A model generated the notes under the pieces. The model had not been told where the DNA came from, made no database searches, and saw only the letters and a list, made by a program, of their open reading frames with translations. A DNA stretch of 64,000 nucleotides, taken from Chloroflexota bacterium (GTDB lineage Bacteria > Chloroflexota > Anaerolineae > UBA1429). The DNA lies in contig JAAYDC010000015.1 of assembly GCA_012729455.1 (NCBI GenBank), forward strand, positions 62,001 to 126,000. Direction: 5' to 3'. Position numbers and translations under genes: made by a program. Shown here piece after piece: positions 45,168-53,359 of this stretch; position 1 is the stretch's first letter, and each line of letters begins with the position of its first letter.

Positions 45168-47639
45168 TTAGCCCCATGGGTTGATGATACCGCTGCCCTG
45201 CACGGGAGTACAGGCTGAGACCATCACCGGCAGCCCGCGCGGACGGTAATAGCCGTTCTCGAGGGCGCCGGTGAGTTTTTGCAGCGCCTGGCTGCGCACC
45301 AGCACCATCATACATCCGCCCAGGCCTGCTCCAGCTAGCTGCGCACCGACCACCCCCGGCACCATCAACGCCAGATCCACCAGTTGGTCGATCTCCGGCG
45401 TGCTGCAACGATATGCCCCCGGTTGAAATGCCAGCGCACTCGCCCGCGCCAGCGGATCACGTGCTGCCGAATCGCTCAGCCGCAGCAGATAGACATCATC
45501 GGTTGGCGCAGTATAGGGCACAGCCTGACCGTCCACCCAGCTGACGACGCGGTCGCCATCGTGCGAGGCATTCATTAGCTCGCCAAAGCCCGCGCCGTTG
45601 CCATCCGCCAGCAGGTCGATGCCCAGCCTGGAGCGTTCGCACTCGGCCAGGCCATACAGCACTACCCCGCGCACCGGATAGGTCGTGTCGGGCGCCGCCT
45701 CCTGCAAACCCCACTGGTCCAGCTGTTCAAGCACTGCCAAGGGCAGGTCACGCTGGGCGACCGCCTCAGGCAGCACCAGCAGCATGCGATACAGTTCGCT
45801 CAAAGAAATGCCCAGCGTGCGGGTATTCACGTCGCGTAGATACTGCATACGCTCGGCCAGCTGCGGAAAGGCAGCACGCAGCCAGGCCAGTCCGATGCGA
45901 TAGCTGGCGATGCGCTGGTTAAAGGTAGTGCGTGCCTCGGCCGACTTGCGTGCGCTGATGCCCGAATCGCAGATCACCAGCTCGTAACCGGACGGAAAGA
46001 GTGCCATGCGAGCCAGCCGGAAGGGAAAGAACTCCGCCTGGGCGACCTGACCAGCCTGGCTAAGCTTGATGGCCGCGTGATCGGCGCTGCCCCCGCGGGT
46101 GCCCACGAACCACTCACCCTCGCCGGCCAGGTCGACAAACTGGCTGGGCTCCAGCTCGAGGGCGTTCAGACGAATGACGGCTTCGATGGCGGCCACCAGC
46201 AGTGCCGACGACGACGAGAGCCCGGCAGCCACCGGGATATCGCCCGAGACCACCAGGTCCATCCCGCACAGTGGCTGCGTCGGGAAGCGCTTCTGTAACC
46301 GCACCAGGGCGGCTTTGATGTATTTCACCCAGTCGCCCTGGGCCACATTCGACAGAGCGCGCACCTGTTCACTGTTGACGAGATTGAGCCAGTCATCCCA
46401 GGGCAGTTGTGAGATCAGTTCACGCAGCGCAAAGCTGCGCTCGCCAAATCGATCGGGCTGCAGGTTGTGCAGGGTGACGCGGTCGTCGCTGCGCGGATGT
46501 GCCAGCATCAGGATTTCGCGGTTAATCGCCAGCAGGTTGCAGACGCCGCCCTGATGGTCGATGTGGCGGCCGAGGATGTTGGCGCGCCCCGGTGAGCGAA
46601 TCAGCAGCACCTCGGCAACCGGCCCCAGCAGCGCCTCGCCATGCGCCACCAACTCCTGCATGGCGCGCCGCCGGTCGGCAACCAGCTGCTCAGATGGGCC
46701 ATACAGGCACTCAAAATTCGCCCGTGAAGCCAGATCATCGCCCGCCAACCACTCACGCCAGCGCTGCAGCGTTTGCAGGGCCTGATCAGCGGGACGCGGC
46801 AAGGCAACCGGATGCTGGGTCTGCCAGTAGGCGTCCAGAGCCGCCAATTCCGCAGGTGTGTTGTAGCCCAGCACCTGACGCGGATCCTCCGCGACCATTA
46901 AGCCTACCTGATTGCCGGCACGCACCGCCAGGTTCACGATGTCGGAGAGGTACTCTTCGCCGCGCACATTATCGGTGCCCAGCTGAGACAGGGCGGAGAC
47001 CAGCAGTGAGCGGCGCCCCAGATAGATCGAGACGTTGACCAATTCGGCAGCCATTGCTTCTTCCGGGGTAAAGGTTTGCTGATGCTCGCGAGGGCCATAA
47101 ACGAGCCGGGCATCCTTCGGGGCGGCTGCCAAGTCAGCCCATTCGGCGACAGCCAGAACCCCGCCGGCTGCATCGAGCAGCACGCGCCCCTGATGCGATC
47201 CTTCGGCCGCGCGCGCCGTCACCATGGTGAGGTCGGCGCCCTGCTGAGCGTGCTGGCGAAAGAGCCGTTCCAAAAGGACCCCGTCGATCAATCGGTCGCC
47301 CGCAACGAGCAGCACCTGCGGGTCACCTAGCGGATCCTCCTGTGCCACAGCCTGCAGGCCGACGCGTGCCGCGTCGCCCGTGCCGCGTGCCTCGGCCTGG
47401 TTTGCCCACAGAATGCCGTCATGTTCGCTGGTGACCACCGCTTGCACCTGCTCGGCCAGATGCCCTACCACCACCACGGTATTAGGGATCCCAACCTCGC
47501 GGTAAGTGGCGATGGCACGGTTGATCACCGCGCGTCCGCCGATGCGTTGGGACACCTTGTGTTCGCCGCTCAAGCCCATGCGGGCACCTTTACCAGCCGC
47601 CAAAATCACGACAAACTGCGGGACGGATGTCTGATTCAT
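45168..47639 (-). CDS. Nucleotidyltransferase-GHMP (galactokinase-like) sugar kinase fusion
   Basis: 823 residues. Residues 1-~270 form a GlmU-like sugar-1-phosphate nucleotidyltransferase: VVILAAGKGARMG (residues ~10-22), GTGDAARVGL, LLVAGDRLID. Residues ~300-823 are a galactokinase-family GHMP kinase: SPGRANILGRHIDHQGG (~347), IPVAAGLSSSSALL (ATP loop, ~466) and GAQLAGAGLGGCMMVLV (~766). The galactokinase GEHTD motif reads GRHID, so the sugar may not be galactose. Kinase then transferase would convert a free sugar to an NDP-sugar. Its ATG overlaps the HPr-EI stop by four bases; last gene of the PTS operon. Confidence 0.85.
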   Translation of the reverse strand: MNQTSVPQFVVILAAGKGARMGLSGEHKVSQRIGGRAVINRAIATYREVGIPNTVVVVGHLAEQVQAVVTSEHDGILWANQAEARGTGDAARVGLQAVAQEDPLGDPQVLLVAGDRLIDGVLLERLFRQHAQQGADLTMVTARAAEGSHQGRVLLDAAGGVLAVAEWADLAAAPKDARLVYGPREHQQTFTPEEAMAAELVNVSIYLGRRSLLVSALSQLGTDNVRGEEYLSDIVNLAVRAGNQVGLMVAEDPRQVLGYNTPAELAALDAYWQTQHPVALPRPADQALQTLQRWREWLAGDDLASRANFECLYGPSEQLVADRRRAMQELVAHGEALLGPVAEVLLIRSPGRANILGRHIDHQGGVCNLLAINREILMLAHPRSDDRVTLHNLQPDRFGERSFALRELISQLPWDDWLNLVNSEQVRALSNVAQGDWVKYIKAALVRLQKRFPTQPLCGMDLVVSGDIPVAAGLSSSSALLVAAIEAVIRLNALELEPSQFVDLAGEGEWFVGTRGGSADHAAIKLSQAGQVAQAEFFPFRLARMALFPSGYELVICDSGISARKSAEARTTFNQRIASYRIGLAWLRAAFPQLAERMQYLRDVNTRTLGISLSELYRMLLVLPEAVAQRDLPLAVLEQLDQWGLQEAAPDTTYPVRGVVLYGLAECERSRLGIDLLADGNGAGFGELMNASHDGDRVVSWVDGQAVPYTAPTDDVYLLRLSDSAARDPLARASALAFQPGAYRCSTPEIDQLVDLALMVPGVVGAQLAGAGLGGCMMVLVRSQALQKLTGALENGYYRPRGLPVMVSACTPVQGSGIINPWG

Positions 47640-49327
47640 GAGAAAACCTCTGGATGAACACGTATCCCGAGTTGCGTGAACGCGGCAGCTGTATCGTCGA
47701 ACTGGTCTGCACTCAGTATGGCTTCCACCGCCCGCATGGCCTGTGAGCGATGCTGCTCAAGCTGGCGCGCGATCGGCACCAGCCTATGCGGCGCGACGCT
47801 CAAGCGCATGCCGAGGGCATCGAACAGGAGCGCCTCAGGCCACAAGCCGGCTGCCTCTCCGCAGATGTAGAGCGGCTTGCGGTACTGCCTTGCACACTCA
47901 GCAATGCGCGCCATCAGACGCCAGAAGCCGGGCTGCAGCGTCGCGCGCGGCAGCATGTGAGCAGGATCGTCGCGGTCGAGCGCGTAATAGTGCGCTGCCA
48001 AGTCGTTGCTGCCGATCGAGACGAAATCGGCGCGAGGTGCGATGCGCTCAAGGTCATCCGCCAGAGCGGGCACCTCGATCAGCACGCCCTGCGGCGACGG
48101 GGCATCGGGCTCTGCTGCCCTTTGCCAGGCTGCCTGCCACGCCAGCCAGGCATCCGCCGTGCGCACGCCAGCCAGCGCAAAAGCCAGCCGGGTACCGCGC
48201 GCCTGCCGCGCCCAGCTGCACAGGGTCTCGACAGGCAACACCGAGGCGGACTGAACACGCCAGATGATTGGCACAGAGCGAGCGAGCTCGATTAACTCGC
48301 CCGGCAGGCTGGCGGACCCATAGACATAGTCAGCATCACCGCTGCGCCACTGTTCAGCACGCACCAGGCCGATCCCCGCCGCGCCGTCGGCCAAGGCTTG
48401 CCGAATAATCGCGGGCGAATCGCCATTTGCCCACAAGCCGCTCTTACACACCAGTTTAGGTTGCGGCGGAACCTGAACAGGCGCAGTGACGTGCGCGTTT
48501 GCCCGAGCGACGCGTACGATCCCGCGCGCGCCGTCGACGTACAGCCGGGGGTGCTGCGCCATGGCAGCCAGCTGCGCGGTGCCGAATCCGGCCACCATGG
48601 GAATGCCCAACGCACGCGCTGCAATGGCGCTGTGCGAGGTAAAGGCCCCTGTGCCGCACACCACCGCGGCGATCCTGCCCGCGCCAGCCTCCAGGAGCTC
48701 ACTAACTTGCACGCTTTCCTTGAGCAGAATGCACGGCGAACTAGATAGCGCTTCAGGTTGCGCGAGCAAGCGAGCGCGCACGCTTTCGATGAGCATCGCA
48801 GCAGCCCCAGAGGGCAACGTACCGGCCAGCATCTCGCCCAAACGCGGATGCTCCAACAGCTGGCGTTCGGCTTCAAGTAGCTCAGTCAGTTCAGCCGCAC
48901 CGGATGCCTGTGTCGAGTACAACTCGCGCGCGAGTGCCAACTGTGCGCCGTTCAGGTGCGCTATCGGGTCAACAACAGCGCCTGTTTTATCCATGGGTGG
49001 CAACCAACTCGGCGCTGCAGCCGCCTCGCCCGCCGAGAGGCCGCATCCCTGCCAGTGAGTCTGGTCATCCGGGCAGGCCTGCAGCAGCTCGAGCATCTCA
49101 GCCCAGGCAGTGTCCGGCAAGGGCATATCGGAACAAAGAGTGATGTGGCTGCCGGCTGAGATTCCCAGCAGGAGCATGTCAGTAACGCTGGCGGCCTCTG
49201 CCTGCCGGCCCTTGGCTGTTACGACCAGGTTTGCACTGCTGTACTGTGACAATGCCGCCAGACGCGCGGCAACGCGAGCGTGCAGATCCACCCCGATAAA
49301 CCATCCGCGCTGTTCGCACTCAGGCAT
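47636..49327 (-). CDS. HPr-Enzyme I fusion of the PTS, with a shortened EI barrel
   Basis: 563 residues. Residues 1-~85 are HPr-like: GVDLHARVAARL with H16 as phospho-site, then LLLLGISAGSHITL. Residues ~140-300 fit the EI phosphohistidine domain with TSHSAIAARALGIPMVAG. The PEP-binding barrel has GIGLVRAE, VLIEVPAL, FVSIGSNDLAAHYYALDRDD and ICGEAAG (catalytic Cys), but the usual DIGGDK..LPY and E.NP.LG.RG segments are absent, making it ~100 residues short of normal HPr-EI. PEP-dependent phosphorylation is therefore likely but not certain. ATG 49327 overlaps the EIICD stop by eight bases. Confidence 0.82.
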   Translation of the reverse strand: MPECEQRGWFIGVDLHARVAARLAALSQYSSANLVVTAKGRQAEAASVTDMLLLGISAGSHITLCSDMPLPDTAWAEMLELLQACPDDQTHWQGCGLSAGEAAAAPSWLPPMDKTGAVVDPIAHLNGAQLALARELYSTQASGAAELTELLEAERQLLEHPRLGEMLAGTLPSGAAAMLIESVRARLLAQPEALSSSPCILLKESVQVSELLEAGAGRIAAVVCGTGAFTSHSAIAARALGIPMVAGFGTAQLAAMAQHPRLYVDGARGIVRVARANAHVTAPVQVPPQPKLVCKSGLWANGDSPAIIRQALADGAAGIGLVRAEQWRSGDADYVYGSASLPGELIELARSVPIIWRVQSASVLPVETLCSWARQARGTRLAFALAGVRTADAWLAWQAAWQRAAEPDAPSPQGVLIEVPALADDLERIAPRADFVSIGSNDLAAHYYALDRDDPAHMLPRATLQPGFWRLMARIAECARQYRKPLYICGEAAGLWPEALLFDALGMRLSVAPHRLVPIARQLEQHRSQAMRAVEAILSADQFDDTAAAFTQLGIRVHPEVFS

Positions 49328-50990
49328 GCGCCAGCCCCCCCGTCACCCCCAGCAAAGCACCCACCAGCCATAGCGCTGTCATTACCCAGGGGAGCTTGAA
49401 TCCGCGCCGAAACAGCCAGACCAACCCTAAAACTGCCAGCAGAGAGAGTGCCTGACCGACTGGTCCGGCCAGGCCTGCCGGCCACATGTCTGGGTTCAAT
49501 TGCAGAGGTGCCAGGCGCGCCAGCACCACCCCCAGCATCAGGCTGGCAAAGCGCTCGAGGCCTGCCAGGACGCGTTGCCAGACACCGCTGGCGAGCCAGC
49601 GATCCAGCACTGCCCGGCCGCTGCGATACCCCTGCCAAAACGCACCAGCGCCTACCCCCCAGATCACCAGCGAGATGCCCACCACATAGAGAGCCGGACC
49701 CCACAACCCGTGCGACTGGGTCAAGCCTAATGCCAGCAGCAGCGCAGCGGGCACCAGCGTGCCTTGGATGAGGGTATCGCCCACCGCCGCCAGCGGTCCC
49801 ATCAGGCCGGTTTTCATCGCATGCACAGAGTCGGGTTCGACGAAGCCCGCCTGCACGCGTTCCTCCATAGCCAGTGAGGTACCGATAATAAAGGCGCCCA
49901 GGTTGGGCTCGGTGTTGAAATATGCAAGATGGCGCGCGATCGCCTGGTTGCGGTTGCTGCCAGCCGGATAAAGGGCCGCCAGCGCCGGAGACAGGGCATG
50001 TGCCACTCCCAAGCCTTGCATACGCTCATAGTTGTAACTGCCGTGTGAGAAGAATAGCCAGTTGAGCCATACCCGCCAGCGCGTGGCAAGCGGTAGCGTC
50101 GTGATGGGGGTATCTGCGGGCGCTGCCTTATCCGCCCGGGTTTGCGCCTGCCCTATGGTACGCGGCGTCAAGCGCCATGCCAGCAAGCCAGCAATCAGCG
50201 CCAGCAGCAGGATTGGCCACCCGAGGAGCGCTGCGACGGCAAAACCAGCCGCAAAGAGGACCCCTTTGTGTACATCCCACAGCTGGGCGAGCGCTAATGC
50301 CAGGCCTACTAACGGCATCAGCGCCCCTATACCGCTGAGGGCCGGCAGGATCCATCCGGGCAAAGCTGCCAGGCTGCTCGCCAGCCAACCCGGACCCCAA
50401 CGGCACGCCAATGTGATCGGCAGCCAGCTCAGCACAAAGACCAGCAGTTGCGGTGCCACCACATTACACCACAGCAACGCACGCGGCTTTCCTCGCATCA
50501 CCAGGCGCTCGGCCCAGCGCACAAAGATGACGCTCAGGCTCATGCGTAACTGATAGGTAAGATAGCCAAACATGCCCGCTGGCACCGCCAGTGCCAGCGC
50601 CGCAGAGGGGCTCAACGGGCTGGCCAGTGCCAGGGCGGTGCCAAGGTAGCCGGCCAGGGCGATATCGCTGGGCAGTGCCCCGCCCGGGGCGTAAAAGCCC
50701 AGATAAGCCAGGTTGATGAACGCCCCGATCTGTGCGCCTTCGGCGGGCTTGCCCAGGATCAGCCCTACCAGGGTGCCGGCCACCAACGGGCGGTAGAGCG
50801 TAAAGTAGCCGACACCAGCCAATAGAGCGCTTTGCGAGATAAAGTAGCATAGGCCAACCGCGGCCGCGGCGCCCCAGCTGATCAGCGCAGGAGCAGGCGG
50901 TACCGCCTGGGCTGTGGCGCTGGTAGGCAGCCACAAGGTCGCGCTTGCCAGGGCAAGCACCGCCAACGGCACGCTCAGCGCCTGCGCCAA
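49320..50990 (-). CDS. Mannose-family PTS EIIC-EIID fusion permease
   Basis: 556 residues. The first ~270 residues are EIIC-like (RPLVAGTLVGLILGKPAEGAQIGAFINLAYLGF and several helices). From ~300 the sequence is EIID: WLNWLFFSHGSYNYERMQGLGVA, YFNTEPNLGAFIIG, MKTGLMGPLAAVGDTL and a final helix pair. EIIC and EIID are normally separate (ManY, ManZ); here one chain forms the sugar channel. The first start is TTG 50990, but ~35 N-terminal residues exceed the usual EIIC start, so the real start may be later. It overlaps EIIB by 16 bases. Confidence 0.87.
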   Translation of the reverse strand: MAQALSVPLAVLALASATLWLPTSATAQAVPPAPALISWGAAAAVGLCYFISQSALLAGVGYFTLYRPLVAGTLVGLILGKPAEGAQIGAFINLAYLGFYAPGGALPSDIALAGYLGTALALASPLSPSAALALAVPAGMFGYLTYQLRMSLSVIFVRWAERLVMRGKPRALLWCNVVAPQLLVFVLSWLPITLACRWGPGWLASSLAALPGWILPALSGIGALMPLVGLALALAQLWDVHKGVLFAAGFAVAALLGWPILLLALIAGLLAWRLTPRTIGQAQTRADKAAPADTPITTLPLATRWRVWLNWLFFSHGSYNYERMQGLGVAHALSPALAALYPAGSNRNQAIARHLAYFNTEPNLGAFIIGTSLAMEERVQAGFVEPDSVHAMKTGLMGPLAAVGDTLIQGTLVPAALLLALGLTQSHGLWGPALYVVGISLVIWGVGAGAFWQGYRSGRAVLDRWLASGVWQRVLAGLERFASLMLGVVLARLAPLQLNPDMWPAGLAGPVGQALSLLAVLGLVWLFRRGFKLPWVMTALWLVGALLGVTGGLAHA

Positions 50991-51463
50991 AGAAGGCCGG
51001 AATCGTGGTAGCGCGCGCGATATATCAAGCGCACCCCGGAATCTGCGAGCGATTGCAGCACCTCCGCCTCATCGGCATCCAGATAGACACGCTCGAACAC
51101 GTACTCACGCCCCACACGCCATGCCAGCGCCCCAAGGATAACCTCGCCCGACCAGCCAGACGGCAGCAGCTCCACCAGCGCCGATACGCTATCCGTGACC
51201 ACCAACCGGTTATGCGGTACCACTTGCGTACTTAACAGTGGCCGGGCAGCCTCTGGTGTAAGCACTGCCAAGTCGTATTGCTGCGGGGTGACAACGCGCA
51301 ACAGTGCGGCGTCTGGCGGCGGGTTACTAAGGCTGACCACCATGATATCGCAGGGCGCGAGCCAGCGCAGCCAGTCGGCCACCACCTGACCATGGATCAG
51401 GCGGTCATCCAGCCGGATGACCACACGCGCGCGAGCGCTCTCAGACGTCACCATCACGCCCAT
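50975..51463 (-). CDS. Mannose-family PTS EIIB
   Basis: 162 residues. VIRLDDRLIHGQVVADWLR contains the phospho-accepting H24 in the DDRLIHGQV signature; the rest fits the EIIB alpha/beta fold (LTPEAARPLL, GALAWRVGREYVFERVYLD). It passes phosphate from EIIA to the sugar during uptake. ATG 51463 is used (a second ATG three codons later is possible). Overlaps EIIA by 23 bases and EIICD by 16. Confidence 0.9.
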   Translation of the reverse strand: MGVMVTSESARARVVIRLDDRLIHGQVVADWLRWLAPCDIMVVSLSNPPPDAALLRVVTPQQYDLAVLTPEAARPLLSTQVVPHNRLVVTDSVSALVELLPSGWSGEVILGALAWRVGREYVFERVYLDADEAEVLQSLADSGVRLIYRARYHDSGLLWRRR

Positions 51464-51869
51464 GCGGCTGTATTACGATGCTCTTGGGCGCCAGCGTTCT
51501 CAGCTGTTGGGCGATATGTTCTAGAGTGGCCCCCTGCTGAACCCCCACAGCAGCCTCCAACACCAGCGCCAGGTTGGCGCCTGCCACCAGCAGCGCGACC
51601 ACAGGCGGGGTCTGACGCATCAGGGTCACCGCCGATTGCCAGGGTGTCCCGCCATAGAGATCTGCCAGCACCACAGCAGTTGAACCGGTCGCACAGGCGG
51701 ATGCCAGACGCTCTGTATAGTGTGCCGGGGCTTCATCCAGAGCAAGGTCGAGGACTTGCAGCGCGGATGTCGTGCCCGTAATAGCCTCGGCGCCAGCCAG
51801 CATGGCCGTTGCCAGCGGTGCGTGCGCTGCAATGATCACTGTGACGGCCGGTCGCTCAGCATCCAACAA
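51441..51869 (-). CDS. Mannose-family PTS EIIA
   Basis: 142 residues. VTVIIAAHAPLATAML places the phospho-histidine H16 where the family has GTHG, followed by AVVLADLYGGTPWQSA, the conserved DlfGGSP region. It accepts phosphate from HPr and gives it to EIIB. Start TTG 51869 (or the TTG at 51866); no ATG is available. First gene of the operon, 23 bases after the -10. Confidence 0.87.
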   Translation of the reverse strand: MLDAERPAVTVIIAAHAPLATAMLAGAEAITGTTSALQVLDLALDEAPAHYTERLASACATGSTAVVLADLYGGTPWQSAVTLMRQTPPVVALLVAGANLALVLEAAVGVQQGATLEHIAQQLRTLAPKSIVIQPHGRDGDV

Positions 51870-51891
51870 TGTTATCTCTCACCATGCAGCA

Positions 51892-51920
51892 ATTATAGTA
51901 TAGGAGCATGGCGCATCCAA
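51892..51920 (-). promoter_or_regulatory. Promoter of the PTS operon
   Basis: TTGGAT (51920-51915), 17 bases, perfect TATAAT (51897-51892), reading leftward. Confidence 0.65.
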
Positions 51921-52024: not shown

Positions 52025-53359
52025 ATGCCCCTGATTATCGAAGGCAGACATCCCCTCAGCGGATATATTTCAGTCGAGGGCGCTAAAAACGCCGCTTTGC
52101 CGATCATCGCGGCCACCTTATTAACCGCTGATGAATGCCTGATCGAAAATGTGCCCTATATCGAAGATATTCGAACGATGCTCAAGGTGCTGCACCATCT
52201 GGGCGTGGCAGCGCGCTTTGAGGGATGCAACACCCTGCGCATCAAGGCCTCCCGCATCGGCAAGGCCTATCTGCCTCCCGATCTTGCCAAGCTGATGCGC
52301 GCCAGCTTTCTGGTGGTAGGGCCGCTCCTGAGCCGCTTTGGCCAAGCCGAAGCCCCTCATCCCGGAGGTTGTGCTATCGGCACCCGCCCGGTGAGCGTCG
52401 ACTTGAAGGGCTTTCAAATGATGGGCGCCGAAATCAACACCGCTGAGGTGAATTATGTGATCTGCGCACCCGGCTTGCACGGCGAACGCCTGATCCTGGA
52501 TTACCCCAGCCACACCGGCACCGAGAACCTTATTATGGCGGCTGTCCTGGCTAATGGCATTACCACCATCGAAAACGCCTCGATCGAGCCGGAAGTGGCC
52601 GACTTGATCGCCTTCCTGTGCGCCATGGGGGCGCGCATCTCGGGCGCTGGTACGAGCACGCTACATATCGAAGGTGTCGGCCGGCTGCACGGTGCCTGTT
52701 TCCGCGTGATGCCCGACCGCATGGTGGCCGGCACCTATGCGCTGGGCGCCCTCGTGTCTGGCGGAGAGGTCGCCATGCACGCCGCTGTGGCGCCGCATCT
52801 CGGGGCGGTGACTGCCAAACTGCAGCAAGCCGGTGCTGAAGTGCTGATAAGTCCTACGGAATTCCGCGTCCGTTATGCGCAGCCGCTGCGCGCAGTCGAC
52901 ATCCAGACCTACCCGTACCCGGGCTTCCCGACTGACCTGCAGGCGCCTTTTACTGCTGCCATGACACAGGCAGAGGGCATCAGCAACACCACTGAGTTGA
53001 TGTTTGACGGCCGGCTGCAATATGTCGAGCAGTTGCGCCTGATGGGCGCCAATATCGACATCGAGGATAACGGCCGCCGCGCGGTGGTGCACGGCCCGAC
53101 CCCGCTGGTTGGCACAGAGGTCAAGGCACTCGACATCCGGTCGGGAGCGGCTATGGTGGTGGCTGCGCTGGCTGCCGAGGGCGTCACCACAATCAGCAAT
53201 GTGATGTACATCGACCGCGGCTATCAGGATATCGACCGGCACCTGGCCGACCTGGGAGCGGTAATTAATCGCTCGTTAGAGGATGATCACGCCCTGCCCG
53301 ACCAAAAGGAAGGCGAACCAGTCGAGTGGTCAGCCGCGCAGGTGCCGCAAACCCCTTGA
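52025..53359 (+). CDS. murA: UDP-N-acetylglucosamine 1-carboxyvinyltransferase
   Basis: 444 residues. EGAKNAALPIIAA gives the Lys-Asn substrate pair at the start, and PHPGGCAIGTRPV carries C116, the phosphoenolpyruvate-binding residue hit by fosfomycin. FPTDLQAPFTA and the inverted alpha/beta repeat continue to the end. It commits UDP-GlcNAc to peptidoglycan. The tail (SLEDDHALPDQ to the stop) extends ~25 residues past the usual end. ATG 52025 follows AGGTGAGG. Followed by mreB from its own promoter. Confidence 0.94.
   Translation: MPLIIEGRHPLSGYISVEGAKNAALPIIAATLLTADECLIENVPYIEDIRTMLKVLHHLGVAARFEGCNTLRIKASRIGKAYLPPDLAKLMRASFLVVGPLLSRFGQAEAPHPGGCAIGTRPVSVDLKGFQMMGAEINTAEVNYVICAPGLHGERLILDYPSHTGTENLIMAAVLANGITTIENASIEPEVADLIAFLCAMGARISGAGTSTLHIEGVGRLHGACFRVMPDRMVAGTYALGALVSGGEVAMHAAVAPHLGAVTAKLQQAGAEVLISPTEFRVRYAQPLRAVDIQTYPYPGFPTDLQAPFTAAMTQAEGISNTTELMFDGRLQYVEQLRLMGANIDIEDNGRRAVVHGPTPLVGTEVKALDIRSGAAMVVAALAAEGVTTISNVMYIDRGYQDIDRHLADLGAVINRSLEDDHALPDQKEGEPVEWSAAQVPQTP

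Follow-up and report, generated by a model that had tools for sequence, protein, structure and literature searches.

A mannose-family PTS operon ending in a nucleotidyltransferase/GHMP-kinase fusion gene, shared by two sister genera of Chloroflexota

A PTS usually phosphorylates its sugar at C6, and salvage kinases act at C1; because of this difference, nucleotide-sugar salvage is normally kept apart from uptake by a PTS. In a 64,000-nucleotide stretch of DNA from a Chloroflexota bacterium (contig JAAYDC010000015.1; hereafter the window), the genes of a mannose-family PTS are followed in the same operon by the gene of an NTP-transferase/GHMP-kinase fusion, which we call NTGK. What would such an enzyme do behind a PTS? 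A lineage that keeps C6-type uptake and C1-type salvage in one tight operon would offer a testable case linking sugar import to the supply of envelope precursors. The features of the locus are listed below.

51892..51920, minus strand: putative promoter, TTGGAT-17 nt-TATAAT, upstream of EIIA, read by eye from the sequence
51441..51869, minus strand: EIIA, mannose family, TTG start; PF03610 (EIIA-man), 43 bits
50975..51463, minus strand: EIIB, sorbose/mannose family; PF03830 (PTSIIB_sorb), 72 bits
49320..50990, minus strand: EIIC-EIID fusion (EIICD), membrane permease, TTG start; PF03609 (EII-Sor), 166 bits, and PF03613 (EIID-AGA), 171 bits
47636..49327, minus strand: HPr-EI fusion; PF00381 (PTS-HPr), 32 bits, PF00391 (PEP-utilizers), 47 bits, and PF02896 (PEP-utilizers_C), 76 bits
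45168..47639, minus strand: NTGK; NTP_transf_3, 55 bits, GHMP N, 56 bits, GalKase_gal_bdg, 37 bits, and GHMP C, 35 bits
44002..45159, plus strand: rhamnonate-dehydratase-like sugar-acid dehydratase (RhamD), enolase superfamily; PF13378 and PF02746; NF011968, 283 bits, under the cut-off
52025..53359, plus strand: MurA, divergent from EIIA; TIGR01072, 490 bits

The operon consists of five minus-strand open reading frames (51869-45168) in the order EIIA, EIIB, EIICD, HPr-EI and NTGK. An earlier note on this DNA, made from the sequence alone, had described five genes with overlaps of 23, 16, 8 and 4 bp; our check of the ORF positions and the Pfam searches, in which every domain of the five proteins exceeded the curated cut-off, gave the same frames, overlaps and domains. 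The overlaps are those of the listed starts, and the long ones depend on the choice of start, since EIIA and EIICD begin with TTG and EIIB has an alternative start. The promoter proposed at 51892-51920 was also found by eye on the minus strand; it was absent from the list of a consensus scan because its -35 element matches at 3 of 6 positions. The RhamD gene lies outside the operon and converges on its end with a gap of 8 bp, and an MreB-like gene comes next after MurA. No sugar-phosphate or amino-sugar catabolic gene was found in the operon.

The histidine of EIIA aligned with His10 of E. coli ManX, and the active-site histidine of EIIB was kept in the sequence DDRLIHGQ. The PDB relatives of EIICD were mannose-PTS IID and IIC chains. 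With phospho-histidines on EIIA and EIIB and with EIIC and EIID both present, fused in one chain, the proteins were assigned to the mannose family. They resemble ManXYZ and AgaVWEF of E. coli in the EIIA-man, PTSIIB_sorb, EIIC and EIID domains, in the aligned phospho-histidines and in the presence of HPr and EI; they differ in that EIIC-EIID and HPr-EI are fused, all genes form one operon, EI is shortened and no equivalog cut-off is reached. Indeed, the best NCBIfam models for EIIA and EIIC were AgaF and AgaW of the N-acetylgalactosamine (GalNAc) PTS, and the scores with the GalNAc equivalogs remained under the cut-offs (AgaF, 56 bits against 130; AgaW, 84 against 300; AgaE, 59 against 500).

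In the alignment with the E. coli proteins, His15 of HPr and His189, R296, E431, N454, D455, R465 and C502 of EI were kept. The stretch of the window EI with R332, K340 and R358 is shortened, and there was no confident alignment there. Relative to the HPr-EI proteins of a sister genus (genome G001) and of genome G012, in both of which R332 is kept, this EI lacks about 50-110 residues. Part of its PEP-binding barrel is missing or rearranged, and Pfam detected the last 120 positions only. We consider the phosphorelay to be derived and probably functional. The genome of the window organism (G000; 2.64 Mb, 30 contigs, 99% complete) encodes one HPr, that of HPr-EI, and one PTSIIB. Besides the operon EI, a single other PEP-utilizer C domain was found in an 895-aa open frame, which is probably pyruvate phosphate dikinase. 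On these counts, the genome has no further PTS of the type encoded by the operon.

NTGK is composed of a GlmU-like nucleotidyltransferase (approximately residues 1-275) and a galactokinase-type GHMP kinase (approximately residues 320-823), so that both domains of a bifunctional sugar kinase/NDP-sugar pyrophosphorylase are joined in one chain. As the earlier note had proposed, these domains would be suited to the conversion of a free sugar to its 1-phosphate and then to an NDP-sugar. The transferase half was nearest to the GlmU uridylyltransferase (144 bits with NCBIfam; 142 bits for a GlmU chain in the PDB with a family profile), and the GlmU-type GxGxRM, Lys, Gln, GTG, Asp, Glu and Asn were kept at the aligned positions. 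An insert of about 65 residues seen in relatives is absent from the window protein. Unlike GlmU, NTGK has no left-handed beta-helix acetyltransferase part, and it scored 119 bits with TIGR01173, under the cut-off of 366.85.

The kinase half shows all the features of the galactokinase branch of the GHMP superfamily, namely the GHMP N and C domains, the galactose-binding signature domain, GLSSS(S/A), and the catalytic Arg and Asp. By sequence it was nearest to human N-acetylgalactosamine kinase (113 bits alone and 178 bits with a family profile, PDB). An AlphaFold model of NTGK was built from 46 family members (pLDDT 91.6, pTM 0.75), and Foldseek placed human GalNAc kinase (GALK2; 2A2C/2A2D) at the top, with a TM of 0.84 on the target. 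NTGK shares the fold and the catalytic motifs with GALK2 and the galactokinases, whereas it differs from them in being fused to a nucleotidyltransferase and in carrying GRH(I/V)DH in place of GEH(I/T)DY. Its score with the galactokinase equivalog TIGR00131 was 135 bits (cut-off 226.65), GRHIDH replacing the sugar-site signature GEHTDY. In the window protein, the Glu and Tyr of this signature have become Arg358 and His362. The change to GRH(I/V)DHQGG was found in 78 of 78 proteins of the NTGK tree, and the Arg, His, Asp and His of GRH(I/V)DH were invariant in the 46-row alignment; the loci were partly picked by a pattern containing GRH, which slightly biases this conservation, and the class-wide profile search is free of this bias.

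Elsewhere, G000 encodes a canonical GlmU, a galactokinase with GEHTDY and two NagA homologues above the cut-off. The separate GlmU and galactokinase suggest that NTGK probably does a different job, and we rejected the reading of NTGK as the organism's own GlmU or galactokinase. We also observed, in G000 (L191, G000:C7, near 67076) and G001 (L190, G001:C105), a 727-750-aa fusion of a GlmU-like nucleotidyltransferase, whose signature is degenerate (LAAAQRPG), with an apparent phosphohexomutase; an Lgt-like gene lies beside it in both genomes, the mutase and this gene being named by eye.

By analogy with two described enzymes, the NTGK-type architecture is already known in kind, although the domain families differ. 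FKP of Bacteroides, an L-fucokinase/GDP-fucose pyrophosphorylase, carries its pyrophosphorylase and its GHMP kinase on a single chain and activates a free sugar (PMC11982464), as predicted for NTGK; in NTGK the transferase is GlmU-like and the kinase galactokinase-like, and no fucokinase or fucose-pyrophosphorylase domain was found by Pfam at E 0.001 or among the 25 best NCBIfam matches listed. DrGKUP of zebrafish, a glucuronokinase/putative UDP-GlcA pyrophosphorylase, has an N-terminal nucleotidyltransferase and a C-terminal GHMP kinase and serves free-sugar salvage (PMC3938481), which is the role predicted for NTGK. The DrGKUP transferase was compared with the bacterial glucose-1-phosphate transferases 1H5T and 2PA4, and its bacterial and archaeal relatives were reported as unfused (PMC3938481); that of NTGK is GlmU-like. 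The DrGKUP kinase is related to plant glucuronokinase, whereas that of NTGK is of the galactokinase type. NTGK represents a broad, apparently uncharacterised bacterial family with a good structural model, and we found no assigned substrate for it; if this sugar were found, many genomes would be better annotated, and the family could serve as a one-pot enzyme in UDP-sugar synthesis.

The combination of PTS and NTGK had been noted as unfamiliar. We found no description of it in the openly licensed literature, and to our knowledge no such system has been described. The search for the same gene order, which the earlier note had recommended, succeeded in one sister genus, flanks included. In Chloroflexi bin.428 (G001; contig JAJFUJ010000162, loci L033/L083), the order HtrA, RhamD, NTGK, HPr-EI, EIICD, EIIB, EIIA, MurA and MreB matches that of the window. 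Where HPr-EI passes into NTGK, the junction reads ATGA in the window and measures about 10 bp in G001, as calculated from the coordinates. Protein identity between the two genomes was 37-54% for the operon, 82-85% for MurA and RhamD (RhamD 85%) and 66% for HtrA. In all five operon genes, identity by codon position followed the order pos2 > pos1 >> pos3, and silent-site saturation was about equal in the operon and the flanks. The five genes are under protein-coding constraint yet fast-evolving, well above MurA and RhamD. The recurrence of the order in G001 and the codon-position constraint in all five genes indicate that the operon is more than chance. In the NTGK tree, the window and G001 proteins group together as sisters (SH-aLRT 95) on long end branches of 1.19 and 0.61, respectively, against a median of 0.32. 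In all other members of the family in which both were found, RhamD and MurA sit on separate contigs.

A scan of 84,980 species (GTDB) yielded 107 NTGK loci, the best 80 of which were taken for the neighbourhood study. These 80 came from Lentisphaerota, Verrucomicrobiota, Planctomycetota, Armatimonadota, Spirochaetota, KSB1, Chloroflexota and other phyla. When the window PTS proteins were used for BLAST, PTS genes adjoined NTGK in one of the best 80 of 107 loci, that of G001, and no PTS neighbour was detectable at the other 79; at least 3 kb of flank was present on one side in 61 of the 77 loci examined. In the window's class (396 genomes), PTSIIB_sorb was present in 42 genomes, NTGK in 11 and both in 6, PTS and NTGK being adjacent on one contig in G000 and G001 only. 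The PTS family was commoner in genomes with NTGK (6 of 11 against 36 of 385; Fisher p = 3e-4, relatedness ignored). In G012 (96% complete), a closely similar PTS occurs in the absence of NTGK, and in G002 (83% complete), NTGK occurs in the absence of the PTS; hence, neither seems to need the other. The pairing is real and is confined to one small lineage. A dedicated pathway from the PTS to an activated donor, which the earlier note had raised as one possibility, is not borne out as a general system on these counts. That note had also named two observations that would speak against its idea: absence of the last gene from homologous PTS loci, which we found for 40 of the 42 PTS-bearing genomes of the class, the closest ones (G007 and G012) included, and its separate transcription, of which the junction gives no indication.

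The neighbours of NTGK were heterogeneous. No dominant partner family was found, the commonest being SDR epimerase-like at 9 of 83 loci, and conserved neighbours were for this reason rejected as a guide to the sugar. Amino-sugar genes lie by some relatives, namely a nagA-like gene (L112), a gene for a TviC-like UDP-HexNAc(A) 4-epimerase (L095) and a GH20 gene (L098), and WbpD/WecB-like genes, named by eye, lie by NTGK at L143. At three Victivallales loci (L142, L145 and L148), NTGK was found with uronate/xylose-type nucleotide-sugar genes and exopolysaccharide export-like genes. Their contents include a UDP-xylose-synthase-like SDR, an epimerase-like SDR, an NTP transferase and a galactokinase-like kinase with GAHVDHQ (L148:12746-16761), and they possibly represent a uronate nucleotide-sugar cluster. 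At L089, NTGK follows apparent pyruvate kinase, phosphoglycerate kinase and phosphoglycerate mutase genes. Several of the names given here to neighbours of NTGK were assigned by eye. In a Spirochaetales MAG (L093:2940-12706), DeoC-like and RpiB-like genes and then NTGK were seen by eye in an apparent bacterial-microcompartment shell locus.

The most economical reading of NTGK is a bifunctional sugar-1-kinase/UDP-sugar pyrophosphorylase for salvage; we infer both activities, and UTP as the nucleotide. For its sugar, an N-acetylhexosamine is the probable choice and a uronic acid the strongest alternative. Phosphorylation at C6 by the PTS and at C1 by the GHMP kinase do not chain directly. We rejected the PTS sugar 6-phosphate as the kinase substrate, which would give a 1,6-bisphosphate, since the transferase half needs a sugar-1-phosphate and the family is mostly without a PTS neighbour. 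For the locus as a whole, we tentatively favour a self-contained mannose-family PTS and NTGK acting in parallel arms on the same kind of sugar, likeliest an N-acetylhexosamine (GalNAc or GlcNAc), which would be the reason for their co-transcription. Phosphate would pass from EI/HPr to EIIA, EIIB and EIICD, and the sugar would be imported as a 6-phosphate for breakdown, the genome encoding two NagA-type deacetylases. Free sugar released in the cell by glycan or wall turnover would be converted by NTGK with ATP to the sugar-1-phosphate, and this with UTP to a UDP-sugar for envelope building; the PTS product would not be consumed directly by NTGK. The N-acetylhexosamine is suggested by the similarity of the kinase to GalNAc kinase and of the transferase to GlmU, by AgaF and AgaW as top models, by the two NagA homologues and by the amino-sugar neighbours. 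The favoured reading is also supported by the recurrence of the constrained operon in G001, by the separate GlmU and galactokinase of the genome and by the higher frequency of the PTS in genomes with NTGK, relatedness ignored. Against the favoured reading stand the mostly separate occurrence of NTGK and the PTS, the altered sugar-site motif, the partly lost EI barrel and the lack of an amino-sugar catabolic gene in the operon. Furthermore, the heterogeneous neighbours of NTGK, uronate/xylose-type ones included, imply that NTGK may act on something other than an amino sugar.

Simple co-transcription accounts for the data about as well as do two arms that serve one sugar in parallel. Under simple co-transcription, NTGK would be a stand-alone nucleotide-sugar salvage enzyme without direct coupling, last in the PTS operon of one sub-lineage. 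This is a serious contender, if not one to be called probable: the 79 of the best 80 of 107 loci without a detectable PTS (flank of at least 3 kb on one side in 61 of 77) are what it expects, and adjacency occurs in just two class genomes, sister genera with common flanks, where shared synteny could explain the conservation. However, the tight junction has persisted through a divergence of the proteins to 37-54% identity, and the PTS and NTGK are found together in the class above expectation by the test that ignores relatedness. In addition, the two NTGKs linked to a PTS show faster evolution than most of the stand-alone proteins, as if linkage had changed the constraint. It is rather unlikely that the NTGK sugar bears a negative C6 group (galacturonate or glucuronate) and yields a UDP-uronic acid, which would make NTGK a bacterial analogue of the zebrafish enzyme. 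This would agree with the Arg and His that replace Glu and Tyr in every member examined, as the Glu of GEHTDY presumably lies near O6 of galactose and a plant galacturonate kinase has the related motif HIDHQGG. The Victivallales gene sets point in the same direction, and DrGKUP offers a precedent for the architecture (PMC3938481). The nearest relatives in sequence and fold, GalNAc kinase and GlmU, are, however, both HexNAc enzymes. Moreover, the role of that Glu is our assumption, and the 80 loci were chosen in part by the GRH-containing pattern.

A phosphorelay acting mainly as a signal, its phosphorylation state reporting PEP or sugar supply to NTGK or to the envelope machinery, seems very improbable. 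The single HPr-EI of the genome, the divergence of the operon from MurA with the MreB-like gene next, and the partly lost EI barrel would be consistent with it; no PTS regulatory domain was found on NTGK, and the complete EIIC-EIID permease is present and under constraint, which argue against it. The relay might conceivably regulate NTGK. We consider doubtful the wider proposal that NTGK is an undescribed bifunctional family, with GRH[IV]DHQGG as a new signature at the sugar site, coupled in one Chloroflexota lineage to a private PTS that would supply its sugar or control the enzyme and so balance uptake and donor synthesis.

In two other genomes of the class, mannose-family PTS genes were found to adjoin a MobB gene (L050) and MobB-like and MobA-like genes (L056, named by eye).
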